Below are positions 19,060-57,000 of a stretch of DNA of 64,000 nt, piece after piece. The translations under genes were made by a program, and so were the position numbers. The notes under the pieces are model-generated. The model did not search any database and was not told the origin of the DNA. It worked only from the letters and a program-made list of their open reading frames with translations. Positions within the stretch are counted from its first letter, which is position 1; each line of letters opens with the position of its first letter. This DNA is from Pocillopora verrucosa (taxonomy: Eukaryota > Cnidaria > Anthozoa > Scleractinia > Pocilloporidae), in contig NC_089325.1 of assembly GCF_036669915.1 (NCBI RefSeq), forward strand, positions 7,093,359 to 7,157,358, written 5' to 3'.

Positions 19060-19190
19060 AACGGTTGCTGATCTGGATTAATTAGTGGAGACGAAGAGCT
19101 TAACTGCACAGCACAGACTGTGTTCTCATCGGAGGACTATCTTTAACAGATTATCGATAAACATTTGGAAACAGTTATCGATAACACACC
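19060..19190 (+). promoter_or_regulatory. Probable 5'UTR of the GPCR with paired TTATCGATAA motifs
   Basis: A pyrimidine-rich acceptor (ctcattttcgcag, ending at 19059) precedes this stretch, so it is probably the 5' end of a spliced transcript's coding exon. The palindromic decamer TTATCGATAA occurs twice, at 19151-19160 and 19175-19184, the second 6 nt before the ATG. TATCGATA is the core of the DRE/DREF element in insects. Whether it acts here is unknown. Confidence 0.5.
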
Positions 19191-27342: not shown

Positions 27343-29931
27343 TGATGTATATTTGTGCTAAACTAGTTGCTTCCTCTGTCTCCCCCTACTCCTCTTCCAC
27401 CCCCTCCCCCCTCGAGTTTGGACTTTGTTTAGAATCCGGCATGCAACAACATGTCTCTTTGTTTATTAGCAACAACCTGAACAAGACAATACTTTATGGA
27501 AATTACGTATCGACCGACCCATCACATAAGGGACTTTTAATGTTTGTTCAACAACAGGAACTGTTGTGTTTGAAGCAAAGTTCGAGTTTTATCCAAAGAG
27601 TTCTGCAAACTAACAACGACGTAGATTGCGCTCGCCATCTTTCCTTAGTTTTTTGTCTATCAATTAAAATTGATACTACTCGGGGCCAAGTTTACAAAGA
27701 AACTGTGGCACTGGCTCGATGGGAGGTAATGCAAGATTATTTTGTTTAATCAACTGAGTTGATAATTTACATTGGTCACCGTGATTGACATTTCGAGCGT
27801 TAGCCCTTCGTTAGAGCAGAAGAATGTGTTCGGCTTTGGTTTCAAGTACTCTTCTTGTTTCCTCTTTCTCTCTTCCTTGTCGGTTATGTGCGCTAGGTTT
27901 AATATTAAAATTACACTTCCGGCAAGACTTACATGTCGTGACTTTCCGCAGTCACGTGTAAGGCCGTGAAAACACATTCTTTCGAAGTAATTGAGCTAAT
28001 TATAATAACTGAAAATGCTTTGAGTGCATTTTGCGTCTAAGTCAGTTGCGCACTGTTAAACTTTCAAAGTTATAGACACGTTGTGCTGAGCAGCTTCCTA
28101 AAGGGTACAGCCGTATAGATTTAAGTTTCTTACCGAAAAAACTGCAGGTGAGTTCATCAGAATGTTGCTAGATTGTTGTGACGAAATGAGCCGAAATTTG
28201 ACCATGAAGTTTATTTCAAAGCATGCATCCATACACTAATCGGAATAGCTCTAAACTTTTGATTTAAGCCACAAAATCAGAGATTGCATTCCTACAGTAG
28301 CATGGCTTCTGTAATTCATTTGTTACTCCCCTGAGAGGAACTAAACCGATAAGTGGTGGTTTACCCGTGCGGTTCAATGACTGTGATAAATAAACGACGA
28401 CGGCCGGACGTTGTGTCGAAAACGAACCTTCCACTCCTTCGATGCGTTTCTTTAAGAAGTTCACTCATTGCTGAATTCATTTTTATGCTTTTATTGGAAC
28501 CTTTTCCCTGCGAAGTATGTGCTTTCGATCGAGAGACAAAGCGGATCATTCACTAATAACCACGGCCTGTAGTGAGCTCCTCAACGCTCAGTTAACAAAT
28601 ATCAAGAAGTAGTGGAACCCTCGGCGCAGTGATACCTGAATGTAACCGACACTGTTTAGAAGCGATTGTTTGAAATATCACCGCACTACAGAATTTATTC
28701 TGATTTGAGACTTTTTGTAGCAAGTTTTCATGTAGGAAGTATACGCTTTCGAGAGAAGAATGGATCATGAAGATCACTCTACACTGAAATGAGTATGGAA
28801 GCGAAAGCTCGTCTATAGCTTAATTAGACTGTCAGGAACTCGAAAGCGAAACTGTTCAAGCGTAAGAGCTCCAGAAGTTTTTTCGTTTAGGTTAGAAGTT
28901 CTCCCTGTATTTGTTTTCAAGTTTTTTTCTTTTTTTTGCTTAATGTTCAGGATTTGGGACAATTTTGGTTCTCAAAGTCATACAGACATGAAAAAATTCT
29001 AGAAAAGTCTGTCATGACAGTTGAACCGTAAAGGCCGGCTTTACAAAGATTTATTTTTAGAAAAGTTCAAACGCAATGATTATGCCTGCAGCAGACACGA
29101 AACTTTCATTTTCGATTTTAACTTGAATCTTCAGCAAACTCGCAAGGCAATGTTTCATGCTATGTTGCGTCCTAGCCTCTTTGAAGGCTCTGCATCATTA
29201 AAAAATATTGCTACTGACATGTTTTATTGTCAATGTCAACCGCCAAGCTCAGTGCTTTTAAAGAATTCTTCGAATTCTGCTTCGAGACCTTTTTAATTTG
29301 TATCTCAGTTTATACACAGTCCATCAGACCAAAAAAACAGACTTAGAAACTTGCGAAAATGAAAATGCTGGTATCTGAAAATTCACCTGCCTGCCATGGT
29401 TTGAAAGTGAAGAGTTTTTTTTCTGTGTGCGTGAGCGTCTGTACGTAAACAACTTCATGTAAATACTGTCCAGTGTATTTGCACAATTTTTTGTAGAAGT
29501 TTCTGTTAGCAGGCTGTTGTATTCGTGGGATCAGTGATCAAACTATTCCTTTACCCCAAAACGTTTTTGCTCCGTATCAAAATGAAGTGCAGATGAAGAA
29601 CATTTCTTGACAACAAATGATCTAGCTTATCTCAAGCATATCGGACGATGTTTTTACTCTAATGCAAATTCAAACAAAAGGTACAAGATTAAATTTCGTC
29701 AGTATTAAGACAGGAGATGTATAGCGACCTTTCCTGTGAATTAAAGTCGTTTTCGAACTACTGCCGCGTATTTGGAAAATATTTCACAGTGAAATTAGCA
29801 CAAGTCAAGAAGAATAAATGCGAGTGAGCCGACATAATGCTCATTTCTTAGGACAGAAAAACTCGATTTACTGTGCTACACGTTTTCCTCACAATTATAT
29901 TTTTAATTCATTTGGTATTTTATGTTCCTAG
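27343..29931. other. Intergenic between RFC3 and the cysteine-rich gene
   Basis: It contains R1 copy D and several chance ORFs of 60-135 codons without recognisable domains. The patch 28300-28560 has open frames on both strands and slightly higher GC but no family match. Confidence 0.4.
27685..27818 (-). repeat. Dispersed repeat family R1, copy D
   Basis: An antisense copy, diverged at its first half (AAGAAACTGTGGCACTGGCT). It is clear at TCAACTGAGTTGATAA and in the final ATTTCGAGCGTTAGCCCTTC block. Confidence 0.78.
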
Positions 29932-29954
29932 ATCAGGTAGTCTTGACTTTTCTC

Positions 29955-31318
29955 ATGATGAAGATAAGCTTCCCATTAGCACTGCTCCTTCAAATTCTAT
30001 TCCTGTCTGCCGTATTTCAACTCATCAATGGACAAGGGGGATCCTGTGAACAGACGTCGAACACGACCCGATCTCAAATCTGCCTGACAGGAGTGTGTGA
30101 TCTTCAGTGCGGAAATACTGCGGACTATTCTCAATGTGACCAGGTTTGTGTGGTGGAACCTTGCCCAAATATCAGCTGCAACTCTTCAAGTTGTTATCAG
30201 CGATGCCTGTCAGGAAAGTGTAATTCAGTTGAATGTTCCGGCGACGATTGCACCCAGACTTGCCTCAGAAACTGCTCCCTGGTGAACTGCACTGCAACAT
30301 CGAAGTGTACTCAACACTGCGAGAAGGGAAACTGTGGCTTACTCGCCAGCGGTGCAGACGTAGTTCAAAATTGCGCCGAGAATTGCTCACATGTGGAATG
30401 TAAGGCTGACAACTGCAAGCAAGGCTGCGAGGGGGAGGGGTGTGGACTCGAGTGCTCCAAAGGTAAGTCCTTTGAAAAAGAAAAAGAAGAAGAAGAAGAA
30501 AAGAGGAAGAATAAGCAGGATAAAAGGGAAAAAAGAGGGCTACAAATGAGCTCAGGTGGCTTTTGACATCGCTGATCCTAGGAGCAGACAGGCCGCTTGT
30601 CGCATGTAAATCCAGTATAGAACGTAACTTGCTGTTAGTTCTCCTCATAGTTCAGTTATTAGTGCATCCGAATGAGAAATTGGAACAAGCTAAACTCAAA
30701 AAATTATTTTTACGATCTCTTATAGGTACCAAGGACTGTACACAGAGTTGCAAAGGGCCTTGCAAAATTCAGTGCGAAGCTTCAAAGTGTGAAAGTAATT
30801 GCATAGGAGGCAGCTGCAACTTGAAGTGCATGAACAGCGACTCCGAATCTTGTCAACAAACCTGCGCGCAAGGAGCCTGCGATATCAAGTGCACAGCGAA
30901 AGAATGCAAAAGTGAATGCTTGGGAGGCAATTGCGCCAATTTCAATTGTACTACTGACCAAGGTGACTGCAGCCAGGTCTGCGAAAAAAACTGCACCAAC
31001 ATGAGATGCAAGGCAAAGGAGTGTCAACAGACCTGCACAAAGGGACATTGCAAAATGCATTGTGAGACGGGTTCAGACATGTGTGTTATGTCCTGTCCTG
31101 GTGGAAATTGCTTGTTGGAGTGCAATGGAAGCAAGTGTAAACGCGACTGTAAAGGAGGCTATTGCGAGTATACCGGAACAGGTGTGGAAGTGAAAGACCC
31201 TACTGTGAAACCGTCAGTGCAGTCTACAACTCCTAAAGCTGACGCAAAAGGATTGGTCGTCACGTATTTGTCTTTCCTACTGCCTGTGATGTCAGCATAT
31301 GTCCTGTCTGGCCATTAA
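29955..31318 (+). CDS. Secreted cysteine-repeat protein, two exons, possible GPI anchor
   Basis: Join of 29955-30462 and 30726-31318, 366 aa; donor GGTAAGTCC and acceptor CTTATAG keep the frame. A signal peptide (MMKISFPLALLLQILFLSAV, residues 1 to about 27) precedes about 290 residues holding 57 cysteines by my count. The pattern is a loose repeat, C-x3/4-C-x4-8-C-x3-C-x3/4, of about 18-21 residues. Examples are CKIQC/SKC/SNC, CDIKC/KEC/SEC and CKMHC/DMC/MSC, often followed by GGN or GGS. Several NCS/NCT glycosylation sequons lie in the N-terminal half. After the last Cys there is a Thr/Ser/Pro linker and a hydrophobic C-terminus (GLVVTYLSFLLPVMSAYVLS) typical of a GPI-anchor signal. I do not recognise the family. 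Disulphide-rich surface or matrix roles are possible. An in-frame Met at 29922 is an alternative start, but a likely acceptor (TTCCTAG) falls between it and 29955. Confidence 0.78.
30463..30725 (+). other. Intron of the cysteine-repeat gene with a purine tract
   Basis: A short intron whose 5' third is a GAA/GGA-rich purine tract (about 30470-30540). The open frame running into it is read-through of the intron, not a real protein end. Confidence 0.8.
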
Positions 31319-37500: not shown

Positions 37501-39752
37501 TTGCCTTTCAGGGTTGAATTTTATGCTGAGCATATACAAGCTTCACAGGTGAACCTATGCATGCATGGTAGAAAATTTATCTTTTAATGACATTTCGTCA
37601 ACGTGAAAGATGAGGAGATATAAATAGCTTTTAAGTGATTTTATATAGATAACAAGAAAATATTCAACATATTATTAGTTGCCAAATTTCAATACTCGGA
37701 GTTTAAATGGTTAACCAAGTATTTTCAGCCGTAAGCTTCCTCGACACAAAGCCTTGAGATGATGAGCAAAGGACACTTAGTTGAAAGTAAACTTTGTTTG
37801 AGGGCCAGGAACCTCTGTCATGACGCAACGATGCGAAAAACCCATTCACCAAATGAGTTTTGAGAAATAGAAAACGCGCTGGAATAGAAATCCATAACCT
37901 TTACTTTATTCGACTATCTTCAACGTGGGTCATATTTTGAAAATCGTTCATTTATGTCATCGTTTACAATTACCTTCGAGGTTACTCTGTACGCAGCGAA
38001 ACGAGATAGAAAAGAAATGCTTCGGTTTCAAGCAAGGGCGGGATGGCGTGTTAAACAGGTTTCTTACACTAAAAACATCTAAATGTAAATAATGTGGTTT
38101 GGATACTTGTACACTTCGGTCATTGTTTTCCTAGCGGTATGGTATAGAGGAAAACTGAGAATAATTATTGTGATGTTTCTGTGAAAAAACCCTTCATAAG
38201 TTCTATGTTAAACCACTTAATTTAATGAACTCACTTATTGTTAGTGGTCCTTCTTTGAAACAAAGACCTCTAGACGCTAAATCCAAGCGCTAATCCACCA
38301 GTTTCCGCGGCCGGCTTATAAAAGGTGTTTCACGGTTAAAAAAGATAAAAAAAGGTTTTAAGGAAGATATGCAGATTAGAATACTTACTCCGAAATCAAC
38401 GAGTTTTCTGCGTTTGCATCAAGCATTGTTAGCAATCGAGAGCGGCGTGAGTATACATATGAAATTGTCTTACAACATGGTTTACCAGAAAGCTTATCCA
38501 TATTTGACGACTCTTTCATTTACGAAGAGTTTGCCTTTGGTTTTGTGATAAAAGGAAGTTCTTTGTGCGTGGGTGACTTATTTATTAAAGCAATTACAAT
38601 TCTTTCGAAATTGTTATTTAACCTGTAATAATTTGCGGGCGTCAGTTTCTATGTATCATTTCATAGTAATACGGAAATTATCAAAAATTTTTTGACGAAA
38701 CTTAATATGATCGCCTGAATCGGTGATTAAGATCAGACTGGTACCAGGATATGACGTAAATCTCGTGACAGAAACTAAAAGATTACATTGTTGTGCTAAT
38801 TTCGTTTCTACGCGTAATTCTGTTTTGTTTCTCACAATGACCTGATGCTCAATTTTATTTCATCGCGTGAAGAAACAGTAGACAATAGGTTTTCTTTAAA
38901 ATGTTTCATTTGGGAATCAACTGAGCTTAAAACAAACCGTTTTGTAAGGTGAGGATCTTGTTTTTCTTCAAGTATTTCGATTTAATTACCTTTTTTTTTC
39001 GAAATTGTCGCCGACGTTTAATGGAGATCTCAATTCATTCAAGAAAAAGCCTCTTTTCTGGGCTTCTCACAGGCTGAAAAATTTGGTTCTATTGATGTGA
39101 TATCGATTTTGTTTTGTAGACAATGTATTACCAGGACAGTAATTTCATAGAGGCTTTTGTGCTTTCGTGTTCTGAAAGGTTAATACAGGTTTAAGGTGTT
39201 CTCATTTAGTTGAGGCAGATGCAAATGTAAAAGACTTGACATTTTAAATCTCTAACACCTGTTTTCTATTGTCTAAGTAAAATATATATATAAACGACTC
39301 TGTTGTATCCTTAGATTTTAGTATGAAGTATAATTTTATTCTTGGAAAAAATTGAGGCGTGGGCCGGGACTAAACACTGAAATTTATCGTAGATATCTAC
39401 CACTAACATGATACATGGTTTGGATGACTGGTCTTCTTTTAAAATTATCATATTATGAATGCATTTTAAGGATCAGGTAATGTCTTAGTACAAAAGTAGA
39501 AGGATGTTTTTGGTTTTAATCTTAAAAGCTTCATACGCGATCAGTTACCGAAATAAGTGTGAAACTGGCAACAAACTTTTGTTCTTACACATCTTTCTTT
39601 GACAAATGCTTTTCGACATCCCAGCGGCGAAGTTCGTGAATGTGGAATTAAATTTCTTCATTTGCCTCTAAACCATTGTGCTCGTTTCCATATTTATTGT
39701 AACAGCTTGAAGGAAAAACAACACAAATTTCATTTTTTCAATTTTCTCTAGG
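34528..39752. other. Stretch upstream of Sprouty-like gene A, no coding exon seen
   Basis: AT-rich sequence with R1 copy E and a TATATATATATG tract near 35458. If the first exon above is right, this is its intron. Confidence 0.4.
36471..36547 (+). repeat. Dispersed repeat family R1, copy E (3' part)
   Basis: A sense copy of the distal half only: GTTGATAAAACCAGTTACC, TATACTCTCCCACCAACGCA, GCACC, GAAACTTACCACCTTTA. Confidence 0.72.
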
Positions 39753-39771
39753 AAATGACGGTATAGGAAAG

Positions 39772-40731
39772 ATGCTGCAAAACGAGAAAGAGTCGTGTTC
39801 AACTCCAGTACACCTCGACATGGGAGGCGAATATTGCACCTTAAGAGAAATTTCTGACGCGGCAGCTGCGGCTGGAGCAACAAAGAAGCTAACCAGTCAA
39901 AAACCTGAACAAAATGCACAAGCTAACCACGCAAGTCGAGACGATAAGGATATCAACCTGAGCCCGAGGCACAAAGTGTTACGCTCAAAGTCAACTCCCG
40001 CGCGAGAAACACCCGTGAACATCGCACTTGACACAGAAGGTGTGTCAGCTAAACACGTGAATGGTGTTCAGCCGAGTGCGAGTGGCCATTATGTGATAGC
40101 CCCAGCGAGACGAAGCACAGGTCATGTCAAACCGGGAGGCAGGCGAAGTCTCGGGTCTCTTTCTACTCGGGAGCCGCCTGCTCCACTCTGCTACTTCGCA
40201 TATCTAGGCAAGCTCACCCCAGCGCCGAAAGATACTCAGCGGGGACGGCTTCACTCGGCGCATGACATCTTAGCTGATCGGCCAGTGATAATAACGAGCA
40301 CGTCGATTATATCTCCTTACGCCACCAATGTTATTTGCCAGGAATTTGAAGCGATCGAGGAGGACGAAAGACGTGGAGATTGCCACGACCTCTTGGACTG
40401 TTGCACGTGCATGTGCTGTGTGAAAGGACTCTTTTACCACTGCACCAAAGATAACAAAGATGAAGGTCAAATTTCCGAGGATCCCTGTTCATGCCAGGGG
40501 CCTGTGAGCGAGTGCATGGGCCGCTGGGGGATCATGGGAGTCATGTCCATATTCATGCCTTGCCTGTGTTGTTACCTCCCTTTTGAGGCATATTTTAAGT
40601 GCCACGACTGTGTGAAAAGTATGAACAGCGGAGATGAACGTGAGAGAAGGAGGGATCCTATAGGATGCTCGTCTTCGGAAATGGAACCTGCATCAATACT
40701 GATGAATTCCAGAAATGGAACTGTGATATAG
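39772..40731 (+). CDS. Sprouty-like protein A (partial Sprouty cysteine-rich domain)
   Basis: Intronless CDS, 319 aa; an acceptor (ttttctctag, ending 39752) sits 19 nt before the ATG, so a 5'UTR intron is likely. Residues 204-280 match the C-terminal half of the Sprouty/Spred domain: CCTCMCCVKGLFYHC (210-224), EDPCSC, RWGIMGVMSIFMPCLCCYLP (251-270) and a final HDC. The usual upstream part of that domain, including the LPxCWLC region, is absent. Residues 139-146 (LCYFAYLG) form a block shared with the two genes downstream. The N-terminal 135 residues are polar and Ser/Arg-rich (RSKSTP, RRSLGSLS). Sprouty and Spred proteins are palmitoylated membrane-associated inhibitors of receptor tyrosine kinase to Ras/MAPK signalling; the Cys block suggests the same location. 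EYCTL at 20-24 is a candidate phosphotyrosine site, not a clear match to the Sprouty CBL-binding motif. Confidence 0.85.
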   Translation: MLQNEKESCSTPVHLDMGGEYCTLREISDAAAAAGATKKLTSQKPEQNAQANHASRDDKDINLSPRHKVLRSKSTPARETPVNIALDTEGVSAKHVNGVQPSASGHYVIAPARRSTGHVKPGGRRSLGSLSTREPPAPLCYFAYLGKLTPAPKDTQRGRLHSAHDILADRPVIITSTSIISPYATNVICQEFEAIEEDERRGDCHDLLDCCTCMCCVKGLFYHCTKDNKDEGQISEDPCSCQGPVSECMGRWGIMGVMSIFMPCLCCYLPFEAYFKCHDCVKSMNSGDERERRRDPIGCSSSEMEPASILMNSRNGTVI

Positions 40732-43352
40732 AAATTATTAATAATTTCGTCGCAGCCCTGTAGATTCACGTTTATCTCAGGGATAAAGTTTCCATCCTAT
40801 TTTACTCGCCGAATGTTAATATTTGGTATATCATGTCAATCCAAACATTTTGATCAGTAACAAGGTTGAAATTTGCTGGTCAAATTTAAGGTAGCTTTAA
40901 AATATTAAGCGCCGTGTTTAAAGTAGATCCCCCCTATCGGTTGTTTCCCCGTCAGCAGGAAGAGCGAAAACCTTGTAGTCAGTTAAATAAGGTATCGATT
41001 AGCAAGTATCTAGTAAGACGGTTACAAAACGGGACAATTCTTAGTTCCTTTTTATGTGTAGGGGTCTCGTAATGACTGCCATATATACCATTCAAAGATA
41101 AGAGTTTGTCGTTCAATCAATCGATGTCCTCCTTGTTAACATCTTTATTCTTATCGGCTGACTTCTTGACAGTGTATTGATGCTTTAATGAGAGATGACT
41201 TATTGATCACTCCCGGGAGTGAAAGGGTTTTTCTTTAGCTAGAAAGTAACCCAAAAACGCATTACAGTGTGGAATCATACCAGTTACTGATAACTGGAAA
41301 TATAGACACGTTCTAAACTAACCGCAAACCAGCAGACTGGGGCGGGATACCTTATATAGTATTAGAAATTGCATACTGCTGTAACATCGAGTGGTAACGA
41401 CTCCCAAATAACGCAAATCAAAGTAAAAAATAGATTCTGCATACCGTGCCTCTGGTCAGTAATAATAGATCACAAAAGAAAGTAATGGCACACGTGGCGC
41501 AGCCAAGTGGGGCACTGTGATCTTTAACTGTACAGACCAACGGTAACATGGAATCTCTTTGCTATGTATGATGAAAAAAACAACCAAAATGTTGTTTATG
41601 GTAACGTCATTTATGCGTCTGTCTAATAGGTCATAGGAACCAACTAAAATGTGTGCACAATTGATCTTATCATTTAACTTAAGAAAAAAAATACCAAATC
41701 ATTGACATATGATAGATTGCTTGATATAGATATAGTTCTGCTAGGTTTCACTCGGAAATCAGCTTCGTTCGATATGAAACACAATTTATAAATGGATGTC
41801 TGTAAATACTGTAGAAAATAGCAAACTGAATTTGTAACGATAACAAAACAGAGTGAGAAGTATATGGAGGCTCCTTGAACTTTTAATCCATTCCTGAGCT
41901 TATATCGGCGTGAAATATTTACGAAAACATTTCACACAGTTTCTTAGCTTCATTGCTTATCTTTTAGAAATATTACATGATTCATTACTAGTTGAAATAT
42001 CAAAGTAAGGGATAATTAAACTTCTATCCTGACCGAGGAGTTACATTTCTTAATATATACAATATCAGTCTAGTAGAATGAAACACCTCGTATGAAAAAT
42101 AAGGGAAAAAATGAAATGGTTTTAAGTAGTAAGCACAGTTCTTATCAGAGCTGCATGGTTACCTATACTAGGCTCTGCAAAATAACTCCCTATCATGTAG
42201 CATTTTGGCGTTTTTAACAATATCTCCCGCAGGACATACACAAACGGGTCATCTTGATGCTTTAATGCGGTTTGGGTTTTTTTGGGCCATCGCACTGCAG
42301 GTATTCTCACACAAGATTAAATTTACCGGCCTCTTAGTAAGTTTCTCAAAAACATATCATACCTGTAACCTTTGCTACCATATTTGGGTAGAAACGTATC
42401 CGTTTTGATTCGTTGGCTGTTAAACCTCAGCTTGTCTCAAATGTTATAAGTAAATTTTAACGTTTTCAGTTTCAGTATATGCCTCTTGTTTGAAAAACGC
42501 TCCCTCACATAAAGAAAAAAAAATTGAAAACAAATAATATAACAAACAGAAAAGAAAACAACCAAACCAAAATTCAAATTGACTATGGTTATTTTCGAAG
42601 GCTTGAGACATGACGTATTGAATGATCAAACAAATTACGTCAATGCAAAAATGCACGGAGGAAACAACGTTATAATCCACAAAAATTTTACCTTAGTTAT
42701 GTTCAACTCGTGAATCGAGAACGGGAAACTTATTCTCATAAAGCTCCGTGATTTTACGTGAAATAGAAAAAACTTCGGAACAGCTCCAGTTGTTTATTCG
42801 CTGACTAATCACTGAGCTTCTACTACGTCATCGGTAAGATATTTTTCTGTCTTTTTTTCAGAGCTCTGTTTTTTAGAATATATATATATATGTATGTATA
42901 CATATATATGCTCGGTCCGCGCAAACGTTTTGTAATCATCTCTCCACATTCGTATGTAGTAATTGTTCATTTTTATTCCCTTTCTGTTGCTCTTTCGAGT
43001 CTTAAAGAATTTTTTACGGTTAATTTTCTCAGCGACTAACTGTTAAAATTTGTCAATTTATTTTATTTATTCATTTATCTCGAATTAACAGGGTAGCTAA
43101 GTAGTTAATATCTTCGAGAACATTGAAATAAATTGGAAAATGGACTTTGTAAATATACATAAACATAGAGTTTAAAAACTCTAACTGGCAGGAACCGGAC
43201 CAGTCTGTTGTAATCAAAAAGCAGACAAGGGGCTGAAAGCAGGGCGGAGGATTTTAAGCTCCATGTATGTAGCCTAAAAATCATATCTTTGCGAATCGTT
43301 TTGAAGCGTAATTTTAGTTTAGAAATGGTTAACGAGCAGCTTGTAACCATCG
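40732..43352. other. Spacer between Sprouty-like genes A and B
   Basis: No coding exon is recognised. A TA/TGTA tract lies at about 42875-42910. A possible donor (CATCG then GTAAGA, at 42834) could end a non-coding first exon of gene B, with low certainty. Confidence 0.35.
43079..43120. repeat. CTCGAA...TTCGAG repeat, copy 2
   Basis: Shares GTAGCT and TAATATCTTCGAGAA with the copy at 26738-26778 and is flanked by a TTTATTTATT tract. Confidence 0.5.
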
Positions 43353-43470
43353 AGTTTAAAGGTTGACATTTCGAGCGTTAGCCCTTCGTCAGAGCCAAGG
43401 GCTCTGACGTCAGCTTTTAAACTCTTTACGGTGGCCAATTTACATTATCAACTCAGTTGACAAAACCAAA
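43353..43470. repeat. Dispersed repeat family R1, copy F, fold-back
   Basis: An antisense end (GTTTAAAGGTTGACATTTCG through GCCCTTCGTCAGAGC, 43353-43395) is joined almost directly to a sense copy (GGGCTCTGACG, then CTCTTTACGGTGGCCAATTT and TATCAACTCAGTTGAC) reaching 43470. The CAGAGCC and GGGCTCTG centre is palindromic. It ends 80 bp before Sprouty-like gene B. Confidence 0.8.
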
Positions 43471-43550
43471 CAGTCCAGAGAATAACCTAGCTTAGTTAGA
43501 ATACTCACGCCTCAAAATCTCCTTATCAGCAGCGATCCATAGAAAAAGAT

Positions 43551-44357
43551 ATGGCCATACGAAGATCACTATCAATATCGGAACTAGCAGATTCGCCTTC
43601 AGATTCAACACGCCATGATACCGCAATAAGTGTCCTTGTTAGTAATTCTGACAGCGATGACTCTAAGTTAAAAAAAGAGCAGCCAAAGGAAGGAAAGAAA
43701 AAAGATTCTCTTCGAAGATGCAAATCCTTTCCGTTTAGCGGACAAAGAAAACATAGCCAAGAAACTCAGCCAGGTGAGTGGAAGAGTGCTTGGGATAAAG
43801 AGAGAGGATATGTTACAGACCTTATAGCAGAAAACCAACCCGTCAAGAATCAACCTCAACTCTCCTATTTTGCCTATCTTGGTGCCAGATCCCCACATTT
43901 TGTGCGTTACCAAGCCGTTTCGAGCGATGCAGATGTCATTATTAACCTTGGGAGAGATATCATCTCTCAAAATAGGGCCACTGATCGTACAAATTCTACG
44001 GAAAGAAAGGAATTCCAGGGTGAATCTGTTTATGCTAGCGAGCCGTTAAAACTGGATAGAACACAACTGATAGAGTGCTGTACTTGTATGTGCTGTGTCA
44101 AAGCTGTGTTTTATCATTGCACCAAGGACGACGAAGATTCAGGGAGAAACTGGGCCGACGAGCCTTACTCGTGTGAGGAACCTGGGACCGATTGTGCGGC
44201 TAGATGGTGCATCATGGGAATCTTTTCTCTATTCATTCCTTGTTTGGTCTGTTACCCTGTCATGAATATCTGCTCTGACATTTCTTTTAAATCACTGGGT
44301 AAGCAGGACAGTAAGGGAAGGAAAGATTGTCGCTCTTGTCTATCGATAGTGAATTAG
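43551..44357 (+). CDS. Sprouty-like protein B (partial Sprouty cysteine-rich domain)
   Basis: Intronless CDS, 268 aa; a probable acceptor (CAG, ending 43529 or 43532) lies 18-21 nt before the ATG. Residues 176-241 give the Sprouty C-terminal half: CCTCMCCVKAVFYHC (176-190), EPYSC, RWCIMGIFSLFIPCLVCYP (218-236). The tail adds CRSC. As in gene A, the upstream half of the canonical domain is missing. Residues 76-93 (EWKSAWDKERGYVTDLIA) and 102-111 (PQLSYFAYLG) form a block nearly identical in gene C. The first 20 residues also match gene C (RRS, SP, DS). The start of the protein is Ser/Lys-rich with likely kinase sites (RRSLS, RRCKS). A membrane-associated modulator of growth-factor signalling is the family-based inference. 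Confidence 0.86.
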   Translation: MAIRRSLSISELADSPSDSTRHDTAISVLVSNSDSDDSKLKKEQPKEGKKKDSLRRCKSFPFSGQRKHSQETQPGEWKSAWDKERGYVTDLIAENQPVKNQPQLSYFAYLGARSPHFVRYQAVSSDADVIINLGRDIISQNRATDRTNSTERKEFQGESVYASEPLKLDRTQLIECCTCMCCVKAVFYHCTKDDEDSGRNWADEPYSCEEPGTDCAARWCIMGIFSLFIPCLVCYPVMNICSDISFKSLGKQDSKGRKDCRSCLSIVN

Positions 44358-46865
44358 GTGGGAGTTTAGCCCCCGAGGGAGTTAGGGTTAGGGGGTGGGG
44401 GGTGGGGGGGATCACACTAGATTCTTACTGAAGTTTGGAGACCTGGCGGGTTGTTTTACTGTTACAAAATTTTATTTCTTGACAAAGGTGGGAAAGGGGG
44501 CTGGTGGAGATAAGACATCTGGGCTACGCAGTACAGTACAGTGGCCTCCACATCGTACCCAATTAAAGCTTTATGCAAACGACAAAGCCTGATTTGACTC
44601 AGGCCATATTCGTGAGTTTGCTGCGATTTAAACAACAAATTTGGGCGTTATTCACCTATAAAGGTATCGTAGACACTTCTTGACAAGATACACACATTCG
44701 CCGTGACCAAGGACTTTGTTGGCAAGGCTCGAAGCTTAATGATTCGATCTAAAATTTTAGGATTATCATAATTTTTAACATCATATTGATATGTTAGTTA
44801 AATAACTTTTCACTTAATATTTATATCTTAGCTATCACTTGCATTTTGTTTAATAGTGGCTGCAACATAATTTTTATAATTAATTCATTTTGATCTTAAT
44901 TTTATATTCAAATTACTCGTAAAATATTCGTAAACTCGCCTCATGAATAAGCATATTTTCACGTTAAATAAAGCTATGCTGTTTGTTCTATTTATCATAT
45001 GAACTACGGTGTTATACAAGGATTTCCAGCCCTGAGAAAAGCTGTAACAACACACGTGAAAGAATACGATATTTTTCACGTGTGTTGGATATCGCCAATC
45101 AGCTGCTGACACGTCACTCGCCTTTCGCGCCACTCCTTCAGGTTGATGAATAAACGGCGAAGTCTTCACCATTCTCAATCCAAGATCGTTTGTCGGATTT
45201 TTTTCGGGTTATGGCAGCTAAAGCACTGAAAAATCCGTATCGATTATAGACAGTGACGTTCAAACTTTCCTAGAGGAGGAAGAAAACCAAAATACGGAAA
45301 GAAAAACCAAAGGTTATGTATTGAGTGGCTTTGGTAATGACATTTCTCGCGGCTGAGAACAAATATCGACCACTGGAACATTTTTCACAGGCTAATTTTG
45401 GCCATGAACCCGAGAGATTTCTTCTTTCGGTAAGGACCAAGTCAGTAACTAAGAATTTTGTACATTGAAAATTACGCCCGTTGTTTGTTTTTGTAGTACA
45501 GTATTACAACGCATCAAGATTTTTCATCTTGAGCCAGCTTATCTTCAACGCACTGTGCAATTTTTATTCGAAGATTGTCGATCCTTTTACTTTCGGTCAT
45601 TAGTTAAGTCGACTTTTCTTTCCAATAAAGGGCTGTTCTGTTTATATGATAAACAAAGTAATACATGGTTGTTTGTAGATATGAAATTTCTCTTCTCGTG
45701 TTCAACTCGACATCTCACTCGTTTGCAGCGCTCATTGGTTAGAAATCGAGGATCTATAGGAAGGTAAACGCAAACAGGAAATTTGCCTTAAGGCTATTTT
45801 TCTTACTTAATCGTTTAAATCAAAGCAGAGTCGCTGCACCAACACATTTTTTGTCAGATCCATGCCCCAAATTGAAATAGTTTTATGGTTCATTTTCTAA
45901 GCTGCAAAAGCGTTTTTCTCTCTCTTTTGACTTATACAAACAATTCAACAAAAGACCGTAGTGCAATTGATAGCTCAAATATGTTGTAGGCAACCTACCC
46001 CCCTTATGAGACGATGGCACAACTGCACTCGTAGTCAAACTCTTTTAGGCTGCAGCGCCTAGAGTGGTTGAACAAGGCGATTCTCGAGCCACAAGCTCTA
46101 TTGCAGGTGCTGCTGGTAAATACATTGTTTTTGACGCTGTTTAGCAGTGGCACTGAAGTAGCCTCTCTAGAGTGCAAGCCTGGGCGGAGTTCATGGTAAT
46201 CCTGGGCTGCCCAAGACGTCAGAATCCCCTCTCGGCTTTACTGATGTGGTCCAAAGGAAAGGAGAGAAGTACGTGTGGCACCAGCTTGGCTGCAGGAGTT
46301 TGCCAGGTAGTTGACGAAAAGAAGAACTAACCGCCTCAAAGGGGCTCTGCTCCTTGATTTTATGTCAGGGTTTACTCCCTCAGGTGGTTTGTCGACCAAG
46401 ACTAACGAGGTCCGCCTCCCCGTAGTGGATCTGATATTATATATTTCACCTATAATTGGAACCCTTAGCAGGTACTCGTGCTCCGGGTAAGAGCACTCCT
46501 GGGAGCAATAATGGCTAAGCGGTGGCTGGAGAAGGCTCTAATTGAGTACTGATGTCTAGAGACCCTCAAAACGGCTCGCGCACAAGATTAAGAACTTCGT
46601 GGAGCTGTCCGCACTGAAATAAAAACCTGGCTTAGTTTCCAGGCCCTGTTGGCTCAGTAATTCTTGGCCCCCTTTATATGACGTCGTCAAGAGGCTACGC
46701 TTCAACCCCTTTCTAGAACTTACGCAAAAACAACGGAACAAGAGAGTGGCTATGGACTAGGCTGGAAAAAACCTAACAACTACTCTTGTGCACCGGAAAT
46801 TGAAAGTTGGCCAATTGAAGTTGGCCATTTCCAGCTTAGTCGCGTCCTCTCTGAACATACAAACA
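44358..46865. other. Spacer between convergent Sprouty-like genes B and C
   Basis: No coding exon is recognised. A G-rich run lies at 44392-44411. A short palindrome lies at 45048-45087. The segment 46000-46560 has higher GC than its surroundings and no long ORF, and may be an old repeat. Confidence 0.4.
45048..45087. repeat. Inverted repeat containing CACGTG in each arm
   Basis: Arms CAACACACGTGAAA and TTTCACGTGTGTTG (14 bp each, perfect) surround a 12-nt loop. Each arm carries a CACGTG E-box. A similar arrangement is familiar to me from coral repeats, so this may be a transposon fragment. Confidence 0.7.
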
Positions 46866-47561
46866 TTACTTCCGGGATAGGGCAAAAGTAGAACTGCAGC
46901 ATAGTTTTGCTACAGGGTAGCACACCAAACAAGGCAAAAACGTTGAAAATATTCCCAGAAAGCTCCATCGGACCGCACAAGCTGTCCAAGGCATCTCGCA
47001 TGCGCAGGGCTCGTCGGCCCAGTTTCTCTCGAACTCTCCGTCCTCTGTGCAATGGTAAAAGACAGCTTTCACACAGCACATACAAGTAAAACACTCTACA
47101 AGCTGTGTCCTGTCAGTTTTTGACGACTTGGTAAGGGCGATATTTTTGCTTTCGAGTTCTTCAAAAGACTGAGCAGTGATTGGCGCCTTCTCTACAACAA
47201 AAATGGCGTTTGTCATATTAATTATCACTTCTGCATCGCTTGACACCGCTTGATAACGCCCCTTACTTGAAAAGGAGCTGCCAAGATAGGAAAAGTAAGA
47301 GAGCTGCGGTTGCCTTGTGACGGGTTGTCCATCTGCTATCAGGTCTGTAACGTAACCTCTTTCCTTGTCCCAAACACTCCTCCATTCCTCGGGGTTGATT
47401 TTTTGGCTCTGCCTTGCCATTCTTTTCTCTGGTGAAGACATACTTCTTCGTAGAGACCTTTTCTTAACTTTTTCTTGAAGTTCTTGGTAAATGAAAGGCT
47501 TCGATGAGTCTCTCGGCGACCCAACAAGATCGGTCAGCGAGGAGGACCTCCGTGATGTCAT
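46866..47561 (-). CDS. Sprouty-like protein C (partial Sprouty cysteine-rich domain)
   Basis: Intronless CDS, 231 aa; an acceptor on the minus strand (CTGTAATCTAG, ending at 47581) lies 19 nt before the ATG. Residues 157-222 carry CFTCMCCVKAVFYHC (157-171), EPCAC, RWSFLGIFSTFLPCLVCYP (198-216) and a final CC. It is a clear paralogue of gene B: the N-terminus (MTSRRSSSLTDL), EEWRSVWDKERGYVTDLIA (58-76), PQLSYFSYLG and RYQAVSSDAEVII all align. It is convergent with gene B, consistent with an inverted local duplication. The first Cys of gene B's CC pair is kept but the second is Phe. Function by family: control of receptor tyrosine kinase signalling at membranes. This is inferred. Confidence 0.86.
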   Translation of the reverse strand: MTSRRSSSLTDLVGSPRDSSKPFIYQELQEKVKKRSLRRSMSSPEKRMARQSQKINPEEWRSVWDKERGYVTDLIADGQPVTRQPQLSYFSYLGSSFSSKGRYQAVSSDAEVIINMTNAIFVVEKAPITAQSFEELESKNIALTKSSKTDRTQLVECFTCMCCVKAVFYHCTEDGEFERNWADEPCACEMPWTACAVRWSFLGIFSTFLPCLVCYPVAKLCCSSTFALSRK

Positions 47562-47581
47562 TCTATTTGAAGGTGATTGCC

Positions 47582-50500
47582 TAGATTACAGAAAGAACCA
47601 CTCCATGTTTCAAGATACAGACGCTCTTTATTTCAAAGATATTGAATTATAGATCAGTGTCAAGACTCCTGAAATGCCCAGTTTTCCCCTTCCCTTGTGT
47701 ATTGGTGTCCCCCCCCCTCTCCCTCTCCCCCACTCCTCCCCCACCAGCTTCATCCTCGTTACAGTGTTCAGTTCCTTAATAGCGCATTTTTCTGTGGTGG
47801 AAGAGAAGAGGAAAAGGAAAAAGGAGCACCTCGTTTAAGTAACGAATTAAACCCTAACCCTATAGCACGTTCTCAAAGAACGTCATTCATTCTCCCAAGT
47901 ACTTTTGCATATAATAATTAGCTACGTTCACGAGAAATATCCAGATTTCCTCTCTTCCGACACTTGACACCTTTTCAAAGTTAAACACGACCTTTCACGG
48001 CCAAGCTCAAGCTGATATGGCGACTTAAAACGCGCGATTTATTGGCTGCTTTATGTCATGTGGTGCAAAATCACCGGAAAGTTACTTTGCAATAACCTCA
48101 GTCTACTTCAATGTTTGTTCTCATTAATTCCGACGAAAAGAAAAAAGGGTAACCGTTAGCCGTAAGAGCCTTCACCCCAATGAGACCCTCTGTAAAGGTT
48201 GGAGGGAGGGAAAAAAACGAAAACAACGCTGGTAAGTCTTAGCAGTTTCAGTGATGCTTTGGTGATTCAAGAGTCAGTATCAATGACGCTTTCGGCAAAA
48301 GTTACACAGTCCGAAATTTCGCTGTCATCATGAAAAAAAAAATGAATTCAACGCTCAAATGCCGAACTCGCCTTTTCCTCAGACTAAATAAATTCAGTGT
48401 AATAATCAGTCTAACTTAATAACTCAGATTGTTGGTTTTATAAAAAATTTTTACTATTTTCAAAGCAAACTTACCAGCAGATGTTCCCTATTTCAATTTC
48501 CGCAGATTCTTCCATTAATGTCACTGTTTGCTCCTCCACAAACGCGAACAGTCTTGCCAATCGACAACGAGCGAGATTATGACACGAGGGAAATCAGAAA
48601 ACTAATGTTAATATAAACTTGAAGTGGCATTGACGTATATCTGGGAGATATTTACGTCAGCAGCTAGACAAGAAAGGTGCTGAAACTATCCTTTCAAGCC
48701 TGACCAAAACACAGCATGTTATTCCCGGCCAGGTTAAAGTTTTGAGCTCTCGTACTCAAACATACGCATCTAACCATCTTGCTCACTGTTAAAAGAATCA
48801 TTTCCCGATAAAGAGGCTAGCGACTACTCTCTGTTAGAAGTAGTCTAATAAATATGTTATATCCGACACAAATTTTGACTCGAAACAAAGCTTTCAAAAA
48901 ATTGTCTTAAACACACACAAAAAATTAAGCGAGATACTGAAGGTCAATAAAGGCTGAAATCGAAACTCAACTCAAAAAAACAAACGAGTGTCTACGAATT
49001 TTCCCACGTCAACCTCGATGTCAAGTTTAAGGTCTCTGAACATGATTGGTTGAAATGATCAGGTCGTTTAAATGTAATTAGTGAGTTTAATTAGTGTAAT
49101 TAATGTATTAACTTACCACCAACTTACTTATCTGTATTTTTTTCTTCTCTTTTTGGAGAAATCGAACCCAATCGTCAGGTTGGATTTGGCCGGGGTTCGA
49201 TCAGTTCCCAAATGGGACTTTTTTTCCGTGTCCTTCGTTCATGGATAACGTTCAGAACCTTTTCTGTTCACCTCAGATGGTCTAACAGAACAGAAAAAAC
49301 ACTTCTGAGTTGTGACGTCATTGTTGTCCGTTAATTACCCCTTCTATCAAATGACGCACTAGATTCGCCAGTAACGTCACAAGTTCCTTCTTTTTGGCAC
49401 TTTCAGGTCCAGCCATAACATTTCAATTACTTTGAGAGAGTATACCCCAGAGAGTCAACTCAGCAGAATAACATGATGGAAGGTACCTTAACTTCGTTTT
49501 CTTATTTACAGGGTCGAGAAAACCAATGTCCAAGCCGGACATATAAATCAGTTCAGGGCGTGGCTTTATCACTCGAACAGTCTTCCAAACACAAGGTCTC
49601 TATTTTTCCTTTCTCTTTTTTTCCACCAATGACCTTGGAGACCATCCACGGAAGACCTCCATAAACACAATAAACTGAATCAGATTTTCCATGAATATTT
49701 TGCCCTTTTTAACTCGTTAATTGCGCGCATGCACAAGAGCGAGTTGCAGATATGATGTGGAGAATGGCACTCGCTCGCTTGCTCGATTGATCGATTCCTG
49801 TAAACTTTTTTTCGATTTTAGGCCTTTGAGTGCATTTGATAGCTTTTGGCGAGTAATAAAAAAACGAAATAGCGACCTTCTTTGCGAAGAATAGTGCTGG
49901 AGTGAAAAAGAAGCCAATGATAATCTTAAAAGAGTTTATTTTTTTCGTTTTAGTTTCAACAAGCGGCGCCAGCGACTGGCAGGCGTGCGAGGATTCCCAC
50001 TGAAATAAGAGAACAACCTTCGCTTTTCATAAAATTGTAAGTTAAGATCCTTGAACTTGAAAACAATCCGAAGATTCATTAAAAATATCACTTACTCCGA
50101 AGCGCTCGGAGTTTACAGGTGTTCAAAAGCTTTTTTTGTTATGGCGTGAGATTGGGGACAAAATTGATCATTACATTTCGTATCGTGTGTTTTTTCTGTG
50201 TGAAGCAACAAAAGGTGCGGGCGACTGACGAAATTACAGGTTAACACGGAAATCAAATAACACCTAAACAAATAATTTTGGCTAGCGATTTTCAATGAAT
50301 TTTTAAAGAACAATTTTCTTTTAAGTTTCAAGGATATTTGAAGATTCGAACTAAATATTACGTACTAAAATGCGAAAGTTATACACCACAAAATTGATAA
50401 ATAGGCCTGAAATGAAATTCTGCCTTGTTCTTGATTATATGTTGCCTAGCACGTGACCAAAATCTACCCAAGCGGAAATCCAAAATGACGGTGGCAGCCT

Positions 50501-53465: not shown

Positions 53466-54065
53466 TTACTTCGCGCCGGCTGGATCCAGCAACCGCATAA
53501 GAGAAGGGTAACACTGAACACCGCGTACGAATTCATTCTGTGTAATTGTTCCATCATTGTCCCGGTCGAGCTTTGCAAACAGCTTGTGCGTGAACTTTTC
53601 CGGCGTGTTCTCGTCTCTTGGAAGATTTACCCGGTCGCCTGCAAGGCGAAAAATCCCTCGCACGATTTCCAACATCTCGGCACGAGAAACCGCGCCGCTT
53701 CCATCTGAATCGTACATCTCAAAGGCCCATCGTAGTTTCTGCTCTGTCGATCCTCGCGATATGATAGACAAACCTTGAATAAATTCGTGAAAATCAATTG
53801 TTCCATCCTTGTTTTTGTCGAATGTGCGAAAAACATGGCCTGCGAAGATAGTCGCGTCGCCTGTGGAATAGTGATTCTTGTAGATCTCCGCGAATTTTTT
53901 TTCGGACATTTTACCGTTTGGGCATTTCTCGCGAAACGCTTTATGCCAAGTGTGCAACTCGTCTTCCGTGAATTCGGTTGACAATCGCAACTCTTGGATA
54001 TCTTCCGCCGTCAATTTACTTTTGCCTTTTTTCAAAGCATTAGGTTTTGTCCCCTTGTTTCCCAT
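53466..54065 (-). CDS. Neuronal calcium sensor family EF-hand protein
   Basis: Intronless CDS, 199 aa, against about 190 for NCS-1, hippocalcin and visinin-like proteins. The start was placed at the ATG giving MGNKGTK, a good N-myristoylation signal; the frame is open further upstream but would bury that glycine. EF1 is degenerate with the family's CPNG signature (48-51). EF2 (83-94, DKNKDGTIDFHE), EF3 (119-130, DSDGSGAVSRAE) and EF4 (167-178, DRDNDGTITQNE) look able to bind calcium. The C-terminus (CYPSLMRLLD) is the hydrophobic helix typical of the family. Such proteins are calcium/myristoyl switches that act on membranes, receptors or lipid kinases. The N-terminus is about ten residues longer and more lysine-rich than in vertebrate members. 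Lack of introns may mean retroposition or lineage-specific loss. Confidence 0.9.
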   Translation of the reverse strand: MGNKGTKPNALKKGKSKLTAEDIQELRLSTEFTEDELHTWHKAFREKCPNGKMSEKKFAEIYKNHYSTGDATIFAGHVFRTFDKNKDGTIDFHEFIQGLSIISRGSTEQKLRWAFEMYDSDGSGAVSRAEMLEIVRGIFRLAGDRVNLPRDENTPEKFTHKLFAKLDRDNDGTITQNEFVRGVQCYPSLMRLLDPAGAK

Positions 54066-57000
54066 CTCCTTATGTTCGAAGTACGACGAACTAGCAATAC
54101 CCGCCCCCAAGTGAAAACCAACACTAGCTAAGCACTGCAAGTGTTGAATTTAAATTCACGACGCTGTACAGGACAGCCACAGCACACGATTGGTCGCAGG
54201 TTAATTTGCATAGAAAAACTCCAGAACCTCTCAATACAGTGACTTTGTCGTGGTGACGATATACAAATGATTCTTGATCGCGCCAAAGGTGCGTGTAAAT
54301 CATTAATGAGCTCAGTAATGGAAATGTTTTCATTTGCGCGACCGAGAAAAGCAAGATAAAAGAAATAAAAGTAGGTCAAAATCAGACCACAACGAAAGAT
54401 ATTTCTCAGCTGTAAAACTCCAATTTTTTTTAAAAGAATACTTGCGACGCGCACGTTTTATTAGTGTTTTCTTAATGATATGGAAATTTCCTCAGCACGC
54501 TTTTCCCTTTAATTTGGTCTATTAAAGGTTCGTCCTTAAAGGTACTTTTCAGTGCAACATCGGTTTTCAATGACAACTAAATAAGTTTTCCTCGTCTGAT
54601 AAGCGAACAATTACGCGAAAAAAACTTACCATCGTTAATATTAATGTGGCAAACAATTGAAATATTGGTCTCGGAAAAATTTAAAGTTCCGCGGCGGTCT
54701 TATTTCTGACCAATAACTTTGCCAAAATTTGGTTTTCTTATTCGAATAAAATCTTCCCCTTCACCCACGCGTTTGCGAAACCATTTGAAACACGCCTGTA
54801 ACCATCTGTTACGGCAACTTTCCTCATTAAAAGTCGAAGCGCAGGAGGCCGAAACTGTAAACATAGCACAACAGAAATAAAGAGAGTCTCCAAAAGCCGT
54901 CGAAGAGTTAACAGACAATTCAGGGGAAAAAATGTCCTCGCGTGGATACACTGTCATCATCAGTCTTCAGAATATCGAAGAACAGGATTCTTGATAAGCA
55001 GATTGTTTGGTCTGGAGTAAGAGATTAACCTTATCTACGCCAAGATGTTAATCTGTCGCGAATGTTTAGCGCGAGCGAGAAATTCAAACAGTAGATTTTT
55101 CGGTGATACTAAGTAATTTTGGAGGTAAGCAATTAGCAGGAAATTCTACAGTTTAACCATAACATAAAATCATAAGCCAAGTCTCATGACACTGATTCTA
55201 ATTATCGAAAAGAAAAAAACATTCTTCTAAATCTTTATTAAGCATCGAAAGAAGATGTAAACACATTCAGTGAAGAGCCTATAGCTAGTTTGTTTGTTTT
55301 TAACAGTACTAAAAATGTTGGATATTACACTTAAGCAGATTTATTAATACAAAAATGTTTACTCCAAAAAGCCTAAGGAAAGGCCGGAATCATGCTAGAT
55401 AAATATATGATATCCAAGCTGTATCAAAAATGCATGTTTATTATTGATTCAACCCACTAAAAAGATGAATAAATATTTTACAAGAAAACTCTTACTTCTT
55501 ATGAATATTTACAATGTTAATTTCTCGTTCTTTTTCTTCATCTCGATTTCATTTATTGAATTTTCGCTAATGTTGGATCATTCATTTTCGATCTATGATG
55601 TTATGAAGAACTTAGTAATGTGCAGTTTAGCGTGGATCATGATCAGATATCAAACAAAGCCCGTAGAATTTTTAATTCCCATAAGTAATTCAGTAGTGAC
55701 AGTGACATTTAAATTATCTTGTTCGGTGAAATATTATCAGTAGATAACTGGTATTAATTATTCGAATGTTTCGACAGAATTCTACAAACAATCAGCTAGT
55801 GAACTCGCATCAATTCGCTTCAGACAATAACAATCCTTGCATATCCGCAAATTTCCGGTATTAGGACGCAACCAAAATACGTCCAATATCATTAACCGCC
55901 TTGTCGGGGATCTTATAAATAGACGATGAAAATCTCGCTACAATTAATGAATGCTATACACTCCAGCACGAAAACAAATCAAAAACTTGTCCTTGCTTTG
56001 TTTCGGCTCAATTGGAACTTTCTATCAAGCGTTTAGATGAGTTTGAATTACAGTTTCATTTCAGTTCTAATCCCCAGGAGGTGATGCTCTCCATGTTAAG
56101 GAATAAATAAAGTGTTACTTTCCTAACAGCAGAATTGGAATTAAAATCAGGGCCCGAGGTTGCGGGCTCTGAGGCATAGTGCTAATTAAAAAGAATAGGA
56201 ACGGCTCGCTACAACACCAAGACACAACATGATCAACACAAATATCTCTAACACCTATATGTTCAAGAAACGGTATGGCATTAAAAGTGCTAATTACAAA
56301 AAATTCTTTTAACACTGAAACACCTAGAAAACAGTATTTACCTCTTTCTTCATTTACATGTTAGATTGTTTTAATTCATTATTCACGTTTTCCTCTCTGG
56401 CTTCTGTCTATCAACATTGTCCTATCCGATACTAAAATTTCCGAAGCTTGAAGAGTAAACTTGAAGTGTAAAAAAAAACTTACTCTAGCCTTCAAAGTTT
56501 CCTCCAAAACTCTTACGTGACGATTCAGGTCAGAAATTTTGCCCTTATTTGTATTGCAAATTGGAACTAATAGATCCTCTTCTAATACGGTAAAAGAATG
56601 CATTGGTTATTAAGAGGTTATTTCCCTAAATGACTATGGCTGAGTCTACATTTCAGCGATATTTAAACGCGCCCATTTCATCGGCTTTGGGATGACCGGT
56701 CAAACAAGAAAAGCCGGTCATACTGGTTTTTTTGGAACTCTTACCACCAGCCGTTGTGGCTGAATCAGTTACATTGCGGTCAACAGCCAAAAACCTTCAT
56801 GTAAACCATCTGTGTTAATCGCAGCTTGTTATCGCTACAATCAACGAACAGATCTCTGATCTTGGCGAGTGTAGGCGTTAATTCGCTCATATCGAACGAT
56901 CTAAAATCCGTTAGTTCTGCTTTAAAGTAAATATCACGTCCTTGTAAAACAATATCGATATCTACCGAATTCTTTTCCTTTTTTTTTTTTCGAATGAATC

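Follow-up and report, generated by a model that had tools for sequence, protein, structure and literature searches.

Three clustered Sprouty-type genes with a trimmed cysteine-rich domain and a retained membrane-targeting core in the coral Pocillopora verrucosa

Introduction

The strength of FGF and EGF signalling in animals is set by Sprouty proteins, and the question raised here is what kind of Sprouty is encoded by three neighbouring genes, designated G1, G2 and G3, in the genome of the coral Pocillopora verrucosa. They lie in a stretch of 64,000 nucleotides on contig NC_089325.1 (forward-strand positions 7,093,359 to 7,157,358), which is termed the window and is numbered from its first letter. 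An earlier interpretation from the letters alone, the sequence-only reading, had described them as a lineage-specific cluster of genes carrying half a Sprouty domain, perhaps with altered partner binding. The answer favoured here, with moderate confidence, is that the trio arose by old local duplication of a Sprouty-type gene and combine a rewired N-terminus with a membrane-targeting core, and that their products would be S-acylated, be tethered to the membrane and modulate growth-factor signalling. The human SPRY2 and SPRED1 sequences serve for comparison throughout.

Three Sprouty-domain genes and their relatives in the genome

The three open reading frames are present where the sequence-only reading had placed them (ATG 39772, ATG 43551 and, on the minus strand, ATG 47561), and all of them are matched by the Pfam Sprouty model (PF05210), as had been anticipated.

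39772..40731, plus strand: G1, a single long coding frame of 319 amino acids, Sprouty-like (Pfam Sprouty E 1.2e-23)
40357..40620, plus strand: Sprouty-domain match of G1 (profile 29-109 of 116)
43551..44357, plus strand: G2, a single long coding frame of 268 amino acids, Sprouty-like (Pfam Sprouty E 3.4e-21)
44022..44297, plus strand: Sprouty-domain match of G2 (profile 18-107 of 116)
46866..47561, minus strand: G3, a single long coding frame of 231 amino acids, Sprouty-like (Pfam Sprouty E 6.4e-21)
46890..47141, minus strand: Sprouty-domain match of G3 (profile 20-102 of 116; 19-103 in the genome-wide search)

With scores of 84, 76 and 75 bits for G1, G2 and G3 against a Pfam cut-off of 25 bits, the trio belong by domain to the Sprouty-domain family. 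The window is part of contig C14 of a genome of 353.4 Mb in 52 contigs, in which five loci exceed this cut-off, namely G1-G3 together with two genes about 64 kb apart on contig C1, termed S1 (L001) and S2 (L003). Relaxing the genome-wide search to E 10, with six of six candidates scored, yielded a single additional match (E 0.49) that contains an internal stop. The motif strings by which the cluster had been recognised fit G1 best and are not uniform, since the alignment gives FTCMCCVK and RWSFLG in G3 and CLVCYPV in both G2 and G3. Sequence searches of the PDB gave 7 matches to G1 (best E 0.87) and 4 to the Sprouty core (best E 0.094), none of them a credible relative, and no relative was confirmed among 40 pattern matches in a viral contig set or 26 in a prokaryotic genome contig set.

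Extent of the Sprouty domain

In none of the five proteins can one recognise the N-terminal cysteine-rich part of the domain, about profile positions 1-33 of 116 and thus a third of its length. This is evidenced by the bits gained and by cysteine counts. The stretch before the core adds -0.3 bits in G1, 6.8 in G2, 4.1 in G3, 6.9 in S1 and 2.1 in S2, and the SPRY2 domain gains 23.5 bits from it (135.6 bits over profile 1-116; 112.1 without the N-terminal stretch). Counted over the 43 residues that precede the core, cysteines number 4 in G1, 2 in G2, 1 in G3, 1 in S1 and 3 in S2; SPRY2 carries nine within the 35 residues ahead of residue 213. The isolated N-terminal parts of all five proteins also lack any Pfam match, an argument that was dropped because the same SPRY2 stretch gives none either. 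Whole-protein alignments begin at profile position 29 (G1), 18 (G2), 20 (G3), 18 (S1) and 4 (S2), and the core start at profile 34-35 is the result of where the fragments were cut. In the alignment, S1 and S2 share one cysteine 13 residues ahead of the first core cysteine, which could be a remnant of the N-terminal part.

The half-domain description needs correction in its extent, as the missing portion comprises about positions 1-33 plus the last 7-14 positions rather than half. Nor is the trimming special to the cluster, because all five Sprouty-domain genes found in the genome share it. The half domain is therefore rejected as a hallmark of the cluster, and a separate clade lacking the N-terminal half is not supported, since S1 and S2, outside the trio, look trimmed alike.

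It might be supposed that G1-G3 are canonical genes after all, whose N-terminal cysteine part resides in missed exons spliced onto the long frame. Acceptor-like sites immediately before each ATG do hint at an upstream exon:

39750..39751, plus strand: acceptor-like AG of G1, 20 nucleotides before the ATG
43528..43529, plus strand: acceptor-like AG of G2, 21 nucleotides before the ATG
47581..47582, minus strand: acceptor-like AG of G3, 19 nucleotides before the ATG

Of the 2101 ATGs that the window contains, 40 are preceded by such a site in the span of 19-21 nucleotides, and none is found in that span before the ATG of S1 or S2. Furthermore, the first 34 residues of the SPRY2 domain alone give no Pfam match, and a genome search to E 10 could miss an exon of this kind because Pfam is blind to the isolated N-terminal third. 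Against this stand the frames themselves, which are open in all five genes across the junction where the missing part would sit, and the cysteine pattern C..C.{1,3}C.{1,3}C, which SPRY2 matches three times and which has no sense-strand match in window positions 37700-44357 and 46000-52000, L001 or L003 (exons lying beyond these flanks, across longer introns, are outside this search). The pattern occurs once in the six frames of the whole window. A full-length domain assembled through missed exons, named by the sequence-only reading as a possible refutation, is judged highly unlikely; the flanks that were searched contain no cysteine-rich exon.

Membrane-targeting residues and a possible link to zDHHC17

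In contrast to the N-terminal part, the equivalents of SPRY2 K223, R252, C265 and C268 are kept in five of five proteins in the alignment; the D214 position is occupied by D in S1, S2 and G1 and by E in G2 and G3. S-acylation of SPRY2 by zDHHC17 is reported to need C265/C268, D214 and K223; mutants in which it fails no longer localise to the plasma membrane, and R252 is reported to be important for binding of phosphatidylinositol bisphosphate (PIP2) (PMC7657471). When all 26 cysteines of the SPRY2 domain were mutated in blocks, only the change of C265/268 cut acylation by zDHHC17 (PMC7657471), so that anchoring could persist in proteins that have lost the N-terminal cysteines. SPRY2 residues 161-315 are described as sufficient for plasma membrane localisation (PMC12682140), and Spry4 without its N-terminal tyrosine as still acting on Raf1 via the cysteine-rich domain (PMC4113681). 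By analogy, the core of the trio proteins would undergo S-acylation and thereby be tethered to the membrane.

SPRY2 recruits zDHHC17 through a motif centred on P154 with the consensus (VIAP)(VIT)XXQP (PMC7657471). Exact matches are present in three of the five proteins (G2, G3 and S2), compared with 1.4-2.2% of the shuffled N-termini of the five. They fall at a single position of the alignment and precede the core by 81, 79 and 54 residues, respectively.

43839..43856, plus strand: putative zDHHC17-recruiting motif PVKNQP of G2 (consensus [VIAP][VIT]xxQP from PMC7657471)
47307..47324, minus strand: putative zDHHC17-recruiting motif PVTRQP of G3 (same consensus, [VIAP][VIT]xxQP)

The motif is one of eight patterns tried, and as G2 and G3 are close paralogues, its occurrences count as two independent ones rather than three. 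S1 reads LVESQP and G1 a degenerate STREPP. A zDHHC17-like locus is present on contig C8, where the PDB matches of one ankyrin exon at E 0.01 are ZDHHC17/HIP14 only (3 of 3, best E 1.4e-10) and those of a second ankyrin exon rank ZDHHC17 fourth to sixth. About 7 kb downstream of the ankyrin exon lies a DHHC exon, which we take from its appearance to be zDHHC17-like.

N-terminal motifs lost and gained

The CBL-docking pattern of Sprouty proteins, N-x-Y-[ST]-x-x-P, is absent in its exact form from all five proteins, so that G1-G3 lack two tested features of a canonical Sprouty, this motif and the full cysteine-rich domain with its N-terminal third. S1 contains ADYANKPTV, which is similar to the region around Y55 of SPRY2. 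That tyrosine is named in PMC12682140. A different motif, YF[AS]YLG, is found in all three genes of the cluster and in neither S1 nor S2. Its copies in G2 and G3 close the first part of a longer conserved block, EW.S.WDKERGYVTDLIA..QPV..QPQLSYF.YLG followed by RYQAVSSDA.VIIN, in which 42 of 52 residues are identical. The nonsynonymous divergence (dN) between the two genes is 0.16 and 0.03 in the parts of this block, 0.25 in the Sprouty core, 0.61 in the N-terminal tip and 0.66 in the linker.

40192..40209, plus strand: YFAYLG of G1, cluster-specific motif (pattern scan)
43773..43886, plus strand: first part of the conserved N-terminal block in G2 (EW..WDKERGYVTDLIA..QPV..QPQLSYFAYLG), 29/38 identical to G3, dN 0.16
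43905..43946, plus strand: second part of the block in G2 (RYQAVSSDADVIIN), 13/14 identical to G3
47277..47390, minus strand: first part of the conserved N-terminal block in G3 (G2-G3 comparison)
47217..47258, minus strand: second part of the block in G3 (RYQAVSSDAEVIIN) (G2-G3 comparison)

By these values, the constraint on the block is at least equal to that on the Sprouty core, and the block is the most informative new feature of the locus. The N-terminus of G3 has nothing credible among its PDB matches by sequence (3, best E 0.23), and a search of the genome with it gives back nothing beyond G3, G2 and a single stop-containing match at E 0.27.

Two candidate sites of the form bound by 14-3-3 proteins in mode I lie in G1 and G3, and a looser site in G2; the loose pattern R..[ST].P was discarded as a signal, since chance alone would account for it (11-18% of shuffles).

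39982..39999, plus strand: RSKSTP of G1, 14-3-3 mode-I-like site (0.6% of shuffles)
43716..43733, plus strand: RCKSFP of G2, loose R..S.P site (pattern in 11% of shuffles)
47430..47447, minus strand: RSMSSP of G3, 14-3-3 mode-I-like site (1.1% of shuffles)

Since the exact CBL-type motif is missing from five of five proteins and a new conserved block has appeared in G2 and G3, the altered partner binding suggested earlier for the trio is plausible. With the N-terminal third and the CBL-type tyrosine motif lost, the choice of partners would fall to other parts of the protein, and in G2 and G3 it may be set by the new block.

Duplication history and selection

FastTree separates the trio from S1 and S2 with a support of 0.92 at full length and 0.90 for the core and unites G2 with G3 at 1.00 and 0.98, these values being local supports on 5-7 sequences. 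Adding SPRY2 and SPRED1 leaves the trio separated (0.91) from a set made up of S1, S2 and the two human sequences. The proposed local duplication of the trio is supported by these splits, by the shared YF[AS]YLG and by the shared acceptor-like site. Between G2 and G3, dN is 0.38 and the synonymous divergence (dS) 1.74, which gives a dN/dS of about 0.22, against 0.14 within the block EW..YLG taken by itself; full-length NG86 dS is saturated in 8 of 10 pairs and reaches 2.19 for G1-G3, and G2-G3 alone was used. G2 and G3 thus represent an old duplication under purifying selection.

That the genes are decaying or unexpressed duplicates, another refutation which the sequence-only reading had foreseen, is hardly credible. 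The short tail of G3 after the core may speak for it, but the frames are intact after a G2-G3 dS of about 1.7, at the dN/dS given above, and decay is rejected for these two genes. For G1, where comparison with the other genes yields a full-length dS that is either saturated or above 2, the intact frame is the sole counter-argument.

Relation to the Sprouty and Spred families

Relative to the Sprouty family (SPRY1-4, PF05210), as represented by SPRY2, the trio resemble it in the four core residues listed above and in a core closer to SPRY2 than to SPRED1, an exact zDHHC17-type motif lying upstream in three of the five coral proteins (G2, G3 and S2); they differ in the unrecognisable N-terminal cysteine part, the lack of an exact N-x-Y-[ST]-x-x-P, the shorter domain end and the new block of G2 and G3. 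Their own relatives S1 and S2 have the same trimmed domain in a single long frame and differ in that S1 keeps ADYANKPTV and neither possesses YF[AS]YLG or the acceptor-like site 19-21 nucleotides before the ATG. With the Spred family, which joins an EVH1 domain to a Sprouty domain, the trio share only the latter at the C-terminus.

A Sprouty domain without a canonical N-terminus, in a genome where no Spred locus was detected, invites the thought that G1-G3 are Spred-derived fragments left after loss of EVH1. The core identities contradict it, being higher to SPRY2 than to SPRED1 in all five proteins: 42/89 versus 25/78 in G1, 33/86 versus 21/76 in G2, 35/72 versus 22/73 in G3, 43/81 versus 28/78 in S1 and 40/85 versus 29/78 in S2. 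The small tree does not decide between Spry and Spred because the human pair join each other (0.85), weakly near S1 (0.31). No EVH1/WH1 match was obtained in the open reading frames, and none of ten WH1 exon matches found genome-wide to E 1 lies on C14. By eye these ten exons are presumably of Ena/VASP, Homer and WASP-like type, two being left without assignment. The SPRED1 EVH1 query, run to E 10, returned one match, an Ena/VASP-type exon on contig C7. No Spred gene was detected in the assembly by six-frame, exon-wise searches, which can miss split exons. On the strength of the core identities and the EVH1 searches, a Spred origin is disfavoured and considered very improbable.

Among anthozoans, Nematostella likewise possesses a sprouty, the expression of which is lowered by MEK inhibition (PMC4968017); an Acropora table contains a row for Sprouty with 2 (3) entries (PMC4320547), and a differentially expressed sprouty 2 homolog is reported in Montipora (PMC5594617). 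A trimmed domain or a gene cluster in cnidarian Sprouty found no mention in the excerpts of the open literature surveyed (including PMC12804838, PMC8180254 and PMC7535936).

Signalling role and competing explanations

On the reading favoured here, the membrane-tethered trio proteins would modulate growth-factor signalling through the mitogen-activated protein kinase (MAPK) pathway. Several points weigh against it. CCGGAAR, an ETS-type site, occurs 10 times in the window, where 10.2 occurrences are expected, and with no enrichment there is no sequence sign of ERK feedback control. The exact zDHHC17 motif is absent from G1 and S1. G2 and G3 carry E at the D214 position, and mutation of D214 to alanine impaired S-acylation of SPRY2 (PMC7657471). 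Finally, an AlphaFold model of G2, built on five sequences, is too poor to test the fold (mean pLDDT, the predicted local distance difference test, 39).

The opposite sign of action can also be imagined, namely that the trio oligomerise with S1 and S2 via the kept core and, as decoys or dominant negatives, blunt their inhibition so that MAPK output rises. The trimmed domain and the missing exact CBL-type motif of G1-G3 are in keeping with this, as are the homo- and hetero-oligomers reported for SPRY2 (PMC12682140). However, S1 and S2 share both the trimming and the lack of an exact CBL motif, so the trio is not obviously a disabled partner, and the C-terminal part of SPRY2 alone is reported to suppress MAPK (PMC12682140). 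Such a decoy role is regarded as unlikely.

As to partners, contacts of SPRY2 with K-Ras have been predicted via K187, Y191 and T298 (PMC12682140), the first two of which fall in the part missing from the five proteins. When these residues were changed to alanine, however, the signal for the interaction increased instead of falling (PMC12682140). A broader proposal, which is likewise doubtful, holds that the Sprouty system of this lineage consists only of "minimal" Sproutys, with an anchoring core and without the N-terminal cysteine module or the CBL tyrosine motif, that Spred is absent and that the cluster bears a replacement docking block. Should other cnidarians show the same arrangement, this proposal would allow the minimal core to be the ancestral form and the N-terminal cysteine module, with its predicted Ras-contact residues K187 and Y191, to be a later addition.

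Surroundings of the cluster

About 340 nucleotides downstream of the G3 stop codon, window positions 46040-46522 hold an interspersed repeat. Seven other contigs carry at least nine more matches to it at 71-83% identity (one each on C1, C2, C3, C4 and C9, two on C11 and two on C13); window-wide repeat and RNA-family searches returned nothing. Other features of the window are listed below, the EF-hand protein being, we assume, neuronal-calcium-sensor-like.

19185..20429, plus strand: rhodopsin-family G-protein-coupled receptor encoded by a single open frame (7tm_1, E 2.6e-56, profile 1-260 of 260)
29907..31318, plus strand: two overlapping long open reading frames of repeated short cysteine-rich units, without Pfam match; one begins with a signal-like stretch by eye
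53466..54149, minus strand: EF-hand protein (EF hands E 1.6e-23)

Elsewhere, contig C1 contains two large arrays of GFP-family exons at about 28.36-28.79 Mb and 0.67-0.88 Mb. Such exons number 74 matches genome-wide, many with stops inside the matched stretch, and for one of them the closest PDB entry is amFP486, followed by other fluorescent proteins (among the best 60 of 280 matches), proteins of anthozoan origin that fit an anthozoan genome.

Implications

P. verrucosa seemingly offers a natural Sprouty set from which a third of the hallmark domain and the CBL tyrosine motif have been removed and in which the anchor residues are kept. A set of this kind separates the anchoring part of the protein from its partner-binding parts, a separation that is testable in cells. 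The finding is relevant, too, to the early assembly of the Sprouty/Spred system in animal evolution.

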